Below are positions 17,540 to 39,649 of a stretch of DNA of 64,000 nt, piece after piece. The stretch's first letter is position 1; every line of letters begins with the position of its first letter. The notes beneath the pieces are model-generated. The model saw only the letters and a program-made list of their open reading frames with translations, was not told the origin of the DNA and did no database searches. The position numbers were made by a program, and so were the translations under genes. Source of the DNA: Geothrix paludis (GTDB taxonomy: Bacteria; Acidobacteriota; Holophagae; Holophagales; Holophagaceae); NCBI RefSeq assembly GCF_022808815.1, contig NZ_JAKZLC010000001.1, forward strand, positions 434,001 through 498,000. Reading direction: 5' to 3'.

Positions 17540-19207
17540 ATGACGCGCCGCGAACGGAACACCCTCCTCGCCCTCTGGTTCTTCCTGGGGCTGCTGCCGC
17601 TGCTGGTGCGTCCGCTCTGGGAGCCGGACGAGGGCCGCTACGCGGAGATCCCGCGCGAGATGCTGGCCACGGGCGACTGGCTGACGCCGCGCCTCAACGG
17701 GGTGCTCTACTTCGAGAAGCCGCCGCTGCAGTATTGGCTGTCCGCCCTTGGCATGAAGCTCTTCGGGCAGAACGGCGCCGCCGCCCGGCTGCCCCTGGCC
17801 CTGGCCTCGGGCCTCATGATCTGGGCGGCCTGGCGGCTGGCCAGGCGTCTCGGCGCCCGGGATGCCCGCTGGGCGCCCTTCATGGCCGCGACTGGACTGC
17901 TGGCGTTCCTCGTGGGGCAGCTCCTCACGCTGGATGCCCTGTTCAGCGCCTTCCTGGTGGCGGCCCTGGCGGCCCTGGTCGAGGCCGTGGCCCAGCGCCG
18001 GGAGGGGAAGGGCGGCCTGGGCTGGACGCTGGCGGCCTTCACGCTCATGGCCGGGGCCATGCTCACCAAGGGGCTGGCCCAGGTGATCCTCGTGGGGGGC
18101 ATCCTGGTGTTCTCGCTGCCCTTCGGCTGGAAGGACGCCGCCCTCCGACGGGCCATCCTGCGAACGACCTTCGATCCCCTGGGATGGCTGCTCTACCTGG
18201 TGCTGGTGTCGCCCTGGTTCTGGTTCGTGGACCGCGCCAATCCCGGTCACGCGCAATTCTTCTTCATCCACGAACACTTCACCCGCTTCCTGACCCATGA
18301 ACATGCCCGCCAGGGCTCGAACAACTGGCTGCTGGACAAGCTCTATTTCATCGGGATCCTCGCGGTGGGGTTGCTGCCCTGGCTGTCGATCTCGATGGTC
18401 GGCCTCAAGCGCGCCTGGACCTTCCTGAAGGGCAGGGGGCCGCAGGGCCAGGACCCTCTGGCCCGGTGGATCGTCGGCGCCACCTTCATGGGGTTCGCCT
18501 GGCCTCTGGCCTTCTTCAGCCTGTCCGGGTCGAAGCTGCCGCCCTACATCCTGCCCGTCCTCGTTCCCCTGGCCGCCCTGGCCTGCGCCTTCGAGCACGA
18601 GAGCGAAGCTCCCACGGCCCTGCGTCGCATGGGCTGGGAACTGATGGGGTTCGGCGTCCTCTTCCTCCTGGCTGCCGTGGCCCTCCGCACTGGCATGCAT
18701 GGATCCTGGTGGTTGGTGCTGCCCGGTCTGGCCTTCATCGGGCTGGGCCTCTGGGCCCGCCACCTCAAGGTCCTCACCGGACCGCGCCTCATGGTCTCCA
18801 TGGGGACCGCCCTGTGGCTGCTGACGGCGGCCGCTCAGGTGGCCGTCGGTCCCGGCAAGTCCGTGGCCGATCTGGCCCGCTCGGCCCCGCAGGGAGCCCA
18901 GTGGATCAGCTACGGCAACTATTTCCAGGGTCTCCCCTTCTATGCCCGCACCCGGGCGGTGGTGGTGGCGGGCACCGGTGAGCTGGCCTATGGCCGCGAC
19001 CACCTGGGCTCGGCGGCGCCCCGCTGGTTCAACGAAAACCCTGATGCCCTGGGCGCCATGGCGGACCTCCTGAGGGCCGAGGCGCCGGAGCGCCCCGTGT
19101 TCGTCATGGCCAAGGCCGCCAACTGGAAGGAACTCTCCCCGGAGGAAAGGGCGCGCTGGGAGGTGGTGGGCCAGAGCCAGGCCGCGGTGGTGGCCAGGCG
19201 GCGCTAA
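17540..19207 (+). CDS. ArnT-like glycosyltransferase (GT39/GT83 family membrane enzyme)
   Basis: 555-residue polytopic membrane protein with about a dozen hydrophobic segments. WEPDEGRYAEIPREML at the first periplasmic loop carries the Asp-Glu pair used by GT-C enzymes, and DWLTPRLNGVLYFEKPPLQYW is the ArnT-type extension. ArnT moves 4-amino-arabinose from undecaprenyl phosphate to lipid A; the donor here may differ. A soluble C-terminal domain follows the last helix. TAGCCT ends seven bases before the ATG. A second, shorter homologue lies 0.5 kb downstream beyond an inverted-repeat element. Confidence 0.85.
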   Translation: MTRRERNTLLALWFFLGLLPLLVRPLWEPDEGRYAEIPREMLATGDWLTPRLNGVLYFEKPPLQYWLSALGMKLFGQNGAAARLPLALASGLMIWAAWRLARRLGARDARWAPFMAATGLLAFLVGQLLTLDALFSAFLVAALAALVEAVAQRREGKGGLGWTLAAFTLMAGAMLTKGLAQVILVGGILVFSLPFGWKDAALRRAILRTTFDPLGWLLYLVLVSPWFWFVDRANPGHAQFFFIHEHFTRFLTHEHARQGSNNWLLDKLYFIGILAVGLLPWLSISMVGLKRAWTFLKGRGPQGQDPLARWIVGATFMGFAWPLAFFSLSGSKLPPYILPVLVPLAALACAFEHESEAPTALRRMGWELMGFGVLFLLAAVALRTGMHGSWWLVLPGLAFIGLGLWARHLKVLTGPRLMVSMGTALWLLTAAAQVAVGPGKSVADLARSAPQGAQWISYGNYFQGLPFYARTRAVVVAGTGELAYGRDHLGSAAPRWFNENPDALGAMADLLRAEAPERPVFVMAKAANWKELSPEERARWEVVGQSQAAVVARRR

Positions 19208-19378
19208 GAGGTCGTAACAAAACCCCGCCTGGCTTCATCCCTTCGAGCGAGGGGCGGCGGGCGTCGCGATGCGGCGTCAGGCTCGGATCGCGTAGTCCCC
19301 GCTACGCTCACCTCGCCTTCCTGGCCTCGCTCGCCCGGCGCCCCTCGCGCAGCGCCGTGGGGTTTTGTTACGACCTCT
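19207..19378. repeat. 172-bp inverted-repeat element with perfect 20-bp ends
   Basis: The 20-bp arms at 19207-19226 and 19359-19378 are perfect reverse complements (AGAGGTCGTAACAAAACCCC). Inside, GCGAGGGGCGGCGGGCG is answered by a near-perfect complement on the right, and the centre folds as GCGTAG/CTACGC. The whole piece can form one long imperfect hairpin. It lies between the arnT-like stop and a convergent small gene, so it can terminate both, but its size and terminal repeats also resemble a non-coding mobile repeat. Confidence 0.75.
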
Positions 19379-19446
19379 AAGTCCGCACCTTCACCGCCCC
19401 CTCGCGGGTCGGTTGCTTCTCACTCCGGCTCTGGCGGGAAGAGCGC

Positions 19447-39499: not shown

Positions 39500-39527
39500 G
39501 GGTGCTCCGGGCAAAGAGGTCATAACA

Positions 39528-39558
39528 AAGCCCCCCGACCTTGCGGTGCGGGGGGCTT
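39528..39558 (-). terminator. attenuator hairpin in the ilvA leader
   Basis: On the minus strand AAGCCCCCCG and CGGGGGGCTT pair perfectly around an 11-base loop and are followed by TGTTAT, which gives an intrinsic terminator 29 bases before the ilvA ATG. Its GCCCCC arm can instead pair with GGGGGC at 39585-39590, inside the leader peptide gene, forming an antiterminator. Confidence 0.75.
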
Positions 39559-39580: not shown

Positions 39581-39649
39581 CTATGCCCCCTCGCGCGACG
39601 GAATGATCGCGATGGCGGCGCTAATGATGGCGGAACCGGTGTGGGACAT
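39581..39649 (-). CDS. ilvA leader peptide, 22 codons, isoleucine-rich
   Basis: A short open frame from ATG (39649) to TAG (39581) encodes a 22-residue peptide with Ile at positions 8, 9, 13, 15 and 16 (SAIISAAIAIIP), followed by SREGA. The pattern, Ile codons followed by Pro and a GC-rich end, is that of ilv leader peptides in enterobacteria. If charged tRNA-Ile is scarce, ribosomes stall on codons 13-16 and leave the GGGGGC of codons 20-22 free to pair with the attenuator arm, so ilvA is read. If Ile is plentiful, the ribosome reaches the stop, covers that segment and the terminator forms. Only a weak AGG lies before the ATG. Confidence 0.7.
   Translation of the reverse strand: MSHTGSAIISAAIAIIPSREGA

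Follow-up and report, generated by a model that had tools for sequence, protein, structure and literature searches.

The Locus and the Element

The window, by which we mean the whole 64,000-nucleotide stretch of Geothrix paludis DNA analyzed (genome G000), contains an arnT-like gene with a palindromic element at its end and, on the opposite strand, a leader preceding ilvA. The features in question are as follows, with the evidence in parentheses.

17540-19207, plus strand: open reading frame of the arnT-like gene (PF13231 and PF02366 pass cut-offs)
19205-19207, plus strand: TAA, the stop codon of the arnT-like gene and the left copy of a 3-bp target-site duplication (empty site in G001, locus L330; reading frame)
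19208-19377, no strand assigned: MITE copy of 170 bp, a non-autonomous, internally deleted member of a family of about 272 bp (family and empty-site comparison)
19208-19226, plus strand: left terminal inverted repeat, GAGGTCGTAACAAAACCCC (arm search)
19247-19263, plus strand: left strand of the retained internal arm (arm search; family structure)
19332-19348, plus strand: right strand of the retained internal arm (arm search; family structure)
19359-19377, plus strand: right terminal inverted repeat, the reverse complement of the left one (arm search)
19378-19380, plus strand: TAA, the right copy of the target-site duplication (sequence; empty site in a relative)
39515-39529, minus strand: right-end remnant of a family member, TTTGTTATGACCTCT, now the T-rich tail of a hairpin (G003 carries the complete element here, loci L223 and L303)
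39528-39558, minus strand: attenuator-type hairpin of ilvA, predating the element (fold of -26.2 kcal/mol; present in relatives without the element)
39581-39649, minus strand: predicted ilvA leader peptide, MSHTGSAIISAAIAIIPSREGA, with five Ile codons (sequence reading)

The first-pass annotation had placed an inverted-repeat element of 172 bp at 19207-19378, with perfect terminal repeats of 20 bp and a second, nearly matching internal stem of about 17 bp. Such an element is indeed present, its borders now corrected to 170 bp at 19208-19377. The terminal inverted repeats are perfect over 19-20 bp, the outer inverted arms (19204-19226 and 19359-19381) extend over 23 nt with 96% complementarity, and the internal arm pair (19247-19263 and 19332-19348) measures 17 nt, with 94% complementarity. 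The plus strand of the element folds at -110.9 kcal/mol, compared to -72.5 ± 4.5 kcal/mol for 200 shuffled versions, none of which folds as low. In the window copy, one of the two internal arms is missing its first strand. The protein encoded by the arnT-like gene scores below the cut-off of the NCBIfam ArnT model.

Insertion into a Stop Codon

The target-site duplication that had been proposed as a check was found, as a 3-bp TAA on either side of the window copy, and the exact empty site is preserved in a relative. In G001 (L330) the site reads ...GGCGGCGC-TAA-GTCCGCACC, with no element, and the window reads TAA-element-TAA; the insertion thus fell within the stop codon, which the 3-bp duplication restored. 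G046 has TAG at the same site, also with no element, and the element is likewise absent from the printed stretch of eight further relatives (the comparison covered 11 of 30 loci, from 44 genomes with an arnT-like gene). By this gene, G046, G001, and G003 stand at 91, 89, and 73%, respectively, relative to G000. The insertion point of the window copy is thus precisely the stop codon of the arnT-like gene, which was left intact, and the site offers a clean example of a small mobile element that inserted into a stop codon with the gene unharmed.

Of the 112 copies with GAG/CTC ends in a wider set, 36 are flanked by TNA on both sides, with the same N in 26 of these (14.2 expected). Two-sided TNA was not seen in the remaining 76, which we read as decay or misplaced borders. 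By our reading, the window copy is the only one of the ten in its own genome with an exact 3-bp duplication. When additional empty sites were sought automatically, 33 alignments resulted, 15 of them representing the ilvA site discussed below; the other 18 were not used. Proximity to stop codons extends beyond the window copy: among the 111 copies whose flanks could be used, 64 have the stop codon of a neighboring gene within 12 bp of the element edge, 15 of them on both sides, and 28 of the 104 gene ends facing an element are at the exact +1 position. For comparison, 31 of the 344 non-coding TNA sites in the window are stop codons. The codon model behind these gene calls was home-made and also placed a gene within 3 of the 111 copies. 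Part of the excess may come from shortened genes, since the element ends themselves carry stop codons.

A Family of Small Mobile Elements in Geothrix

The central guess of the first-pass annotation, of a single module dispersed in the genome and also present at ilvA, has proved correct. With the 172-bp sequence as the query, 11 distinct places are recognized in the same genome at E ≤ 0.001, ten of these being copies with paired ends, roughly GAG-NNCN-TAACAAAACCCC, with some departures. Counting the outer A and T, four copies measure 272 bp, and the others measure 271, 270, 408, 188, 172, and 55 bp. A longer query recovers additional, weaker and more distant relatives in this genome. A consensus of five copies folds into a three-armed structure. 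The 408-bp member (L008, C2:348153-348560) has two further inserts nested inside, and family members of 407-409 bp also occur at L093, L146, and L155. The annotation held that the idea of a dispersed module would fail if only the two matches that it listed, at the element end and at ilvA, existed genome-wide. This is the case for the strict end motif, TTTGTTANGACCTCT, which has three places in the genome at up to one mismatch, all of them exact (both ends of the window element and the ilvA leader, 39515-39529, minus strand; none for the backward control), but not for the whole element, with its 11 places.

Within the genus, 41 of 47 Geothrix genomes have a match to the element at E ≤ 1e-15, and 36 of 47 have the strict end motif (backward control, 0 of 47). 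A scan of a wider collection found at least 116 stretches. Among the matches listed, 92 are acidobacterial (85 from Holophagaceae), and the core is also present in 68 of these 92 and in none of the 24 others. Palindromes with similar ends and no match to the core are found in Massilia (103-104 bp; L046, L049, L071, L103, L125, and L131) and in a Latescibacteria genome (162 bp; L068).

The elements are short, carry no transposase gene of their own, possess terminal repeats and occur as many dispersed copies; a target duplication with its empty site has been found, as have ends in common with an autonomous element, described below. Assignment to a new MITE family, a known kind of element, is well supported, and the palindrome in the window is, as judged from sequence comparison, a shortened copy of a small gene-free mobile element common in Geothrix. 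Searches of a limited literature collection for mobile elements of Geothrix and Holophaga found no description of this MITE family; the main text of one paper, PMC11109978, mentions neither Geothrix nor Holophaga nor Acidobacteria.

Similar elements are known elsewhere. One example, described in a review, is Chunjie, a MITE of Geobacter uraniireducens of 178-235 bp (PMC10969869). Another is MITEAba12, with 9-bp duplications and ends of the ISAba12 type (PMC6382973). All three are short, gene-free elements with matched ends, target duplications, and size variants. The Geothrix MITE differs in sequence, in its 3-bp TNA target, in the possession of a two-armed core across a genus, and in that each copy has two matching ends while different copies have different ones. 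A third example is presented by the RUP and BOX elements of Streptococcus pneumoniae, which fold with their ends paired together, the RUP ends resembling those of IS630-Spn1 (PMC3049150); the ends of the Geothrix MITE, in contrast, are of the IS5 type. The same source describes 36 BOX copies that provide a stop codon at the 3' end of a gene, and SPRITE elements that are terminator-like (PMC3049150), from which the Geothrix MITE differs in that its terminator signal is not above chance.

An integron attC site was also considered for the palindrome, and rejected. The outer boxes of attC sites read RYYYAAC and GTTRRRY, and the window copy ends in GTTACGA, which does not fit; by its letters, the GTTAGGC end subtype of other copies would fit the box.

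Candidate Mobilizers

The search for a related transposase, also proposed earlier, was successful in the same genus and family but not in the same genome. In the genome carrying the window (an assembly 96.65% complete), no matches to PF13340 or PF01609 were found at E ≤ 0.001, and none to the transposase protein of L360 at 1e-12. This locus, from G022 of the same genus, is an element of about 870 bp encoding the halves of an IS5-type transposase (PF13340, PF01609, and NF033580, the first half scoring below the NF033580 cut-off). Flanked on either side by TTA, it ends in GAGTGCCTAACAATAC and GAACGGCTAACAAAAC, and GAGTGCCTAACAATAC agrees with the commonest end of the MITE family at 15 of 16 bases. 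G065, of the same family, carries five related transposase copies. Its elements with the ends GAAGTGGTAACAAAACC are flanked by TAA/TAA (L416, with one base off at one end) and TTA/TTA (L418), and GAAGTGGTAACAAAACC agrees with the end of the window copy at 15 of 17 bases. The end layout of this type, with a constant TAACAAAACC behind a variable block, is also that of the MITE ends. Among the loci examined in the PF13340/PF01609 search, this end type surrounds the transposase gene only in L360/L381, with a one-ended, partial case in L368/L408.

Insertion sequences of the IS1031 group use TNA as the target and end in GAG. Insertion at three nucleotides is a common feature of this group (PMC2516522). 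On these sequence grounds, the ends and the TNA target of the MITE resemble those of IS5-family insertion sequences of the same genus and the same family, which combine a DDE transposase of the IS5 type, similar ends, and a 3-bp TNA target. The autonomous elements are putatively IS1031-like by the matches of their transposase halves to PF13340, PF01609, and NF033580; the window element, in contrast, has no transposase.

The ilvA Leader

The near-identity of the element end to the ilvA leader, noticed in the first reading, is real, and the tail of the ilvA hairpin derives from a family member. The protein encoded downstream of the leader is IlvA by family matches, and its gene serves isoleucine synthesis. 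Of the 29 ilvA loci, found in 29 of the 47 Geothrix genomes, 24 possess the hairpin and a T-rich tail with no element, as recognized by a pattern search (21 of the 29 leaders were also read directly); in G027, G033, and G041 the pattern search found no such hairpin. In G003 a complete 270-bp element follows the hairpin and its tail, and in G000 the hairpin is joined directly to the last ~15 bases of the element. As to the possibility of chance likeness, the sequence in common within the own genome amounts to only about 15-20 bases, but the complete element in G003 has the same end subtype, is located in the same place and has the same flank, TTTGCCCGGAGC, common to G000 and G003. We have rejected chance on account of this full element, considering its probability nearly negligible. 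Thus, by comparison of the leaders, the hairpin is old and predates the element, and only its T-rich tail is new, having been replaced by the element end. The version in G000 folds somewhat better than the old version (-26.2 versus -23.0 kcal/mol).

The filled site in G003 has no clean target duplication. Because G003 is far from G000 by the arnT-like gene, the shared insertion requires exchange, an old polymorphism, or two insertions; G001 and G046 are nearer to G000 than G003 is across most of the region, although over the initial 300 bases of ilvA this does not apply to G046. Empty, filled, and remnant states of this site are all found in living relatives, and they present a clean case of a mobile-element end turned into the tail of an amino-acid attenuator hairpin. 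The remnant also brings an in-frame ATG (39523, minus strand), eight codons upstream of the likely ilvA start, which would add eight residues if used.

A Proposed History

We consider it very likely that the histories of both sites are those of a gene-free Geothrix MITE that depends for its movement on an IS5-family (DDE) transposase acting in trans. Such a transposase would mobilize the MITE and duplicate the 3-bp TNA target. One copy inserted into the TAA stop codon of the arnT-like gene, keeping the gene intact, and lost one internal hairpin arm before or after insertion. A sister copy inserted between the ilvA hairpin and ilvA, and a deletion in the own genome would then have brought the hairpin directly against the final ~15 bases of the sister copy, which replaced the original T-rich tail. 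The resulting attenuator presumably still works.

Terminator or RNA Function

The first-pass annotation also suggested that the module carries a ready-made terminator. This is not supported: the ilvA hairpin predates the element, and the end hairpins of the window copy are no better than shuffled sequences (z of -0.24 and 0.35), nor are those of two other element ends (0.37 and 0.00). In a scan for terminator patterns, the element has a site at its right end (19343-19362, tail TTTTGTTACG), one compared to 0.6 ± 0.9 expected, and the window copy presents no combination of hairpin and T-tract better than chance.

A broader alternative is that the palindrome is a bidirectional transcription terminator or a structured RNA, under selection at gene ends and spread by duplication. 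The flagged right end, the very stable fold of the whole element, and the stop codons within 12 bp of 64 of 111 copies would all agree with such a role, as would one insertion that three genomes retain in the same position (L255, L263, and L270) and an excess of two-sided stem changes (765 cells, versus 232 in shuffles and 63-127 when the alignment was slid, in six versions). The exact TAA duplication with its empty site speaks against this, as do the end hairpins, which fold like shuffles. The copies are not enriched between convergent genes: their neighbors (n = 110; 64 tandem, 26 divergent, 20 convergent) are oriented much like those of the gaps in the window (n = 41; 25 tandem, 10 divergent, 6 convergent). 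Mismatches in the end stem are A.C in 39 cases and G.T in 34, and with A.C about as frequent as G.T there is no sign of selection on one RNA strand. We thus consider a terminator or RNA origin quite improbable. A structured RNA in particular was rejected on account of this lack of a G.T over A.C bias and of the Rfam result, no family matching the element at the gathering score. Outside the end stem, a G.T excess is seen in the core, largely from four fixed positions (439 of 699). The only Rfam match in the window lies elsewhere and is the bacterial small SRP RNA (RF00169; 58641-58736, plus strand).

Ends Matched within Copies and Varied between Copies

Along with the ilvA case, the ends of the elements are the part of these data most deserving of specialist attention. 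Unexpectedly, the ends of a given copy agree although they vary from copy to copy. Across 118 copies, mismatches between the two ends average 0.81 of 17 positions, versus 4.25 with shuffled partners (minimum of 3.89 in 200 shuffles), and the variable 4-bp end block is identical at both ends in 101 of the 118, a set filtered for end pairing. From 129 extracted copies, 10 were dropped for an end-pairing score below 13 or a length outside 260-276, and one as near-identical. The borders were placed so as to maximize end pairing, and both borders and filter favor agreement of the ends, which inflates this agreement but not the occurrence of two-sided changes. In a quick tree of the core with 95 labeled copies, end subtypes change at least 33 times, compared to a mean of 46.4 (minimum of 40) for shuffled labels, suggesting that the end subtype partly follows the core.

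The agreement of ends within copies could also result from palindrome correction in place, by template switching, with no transposition involved, and the low number of mismatches (0.81 versus 4.25 in these filtered copies) is what such correction would produce. Orthologous insertions argue against this. Of nine pairs, two in reverse orientation were dropped, and in five of the seven compared the end changes are one-sided only (10 one-sided, none two-sided), the pairs being few and three of these five coming from a single three-way group, thus not independent. The other two pairs show one one-sided and five two-sided changes, and two one-sided and one two-sided change, respectively, which we read as different elements at one site. 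Correction in place is thus unlikely, and the ends seem to be matched when the element moves and to decay afterwards.

Eight end subtypes are found on one core lineage. We tentatively raise the possibility, somewhat doubtful at present, that the conserved two-armed core acts as a selfish module, altering its ends in concert to suit whichever IS5-type transposase is available. The matched but varied ends make the tracking of transposase specificity by a MITE testable within a single genus. Three distant relatives of the core in the same genome, L009 (C6:103494), L025 (C5:137139), and L027 (C1:939856), have ends of the GGGCCTGTYTTCAAAGT type on both sides, apart from a single mismatch at one of the L025 ends. 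This sequence is like the end of a different IS5-type element, which might be called IS427-like, found in G030 with CTAG at both ends; G030 has ten matches to PF13340, several of them with GGGCCTGTYTTCAAAGT-like ends.
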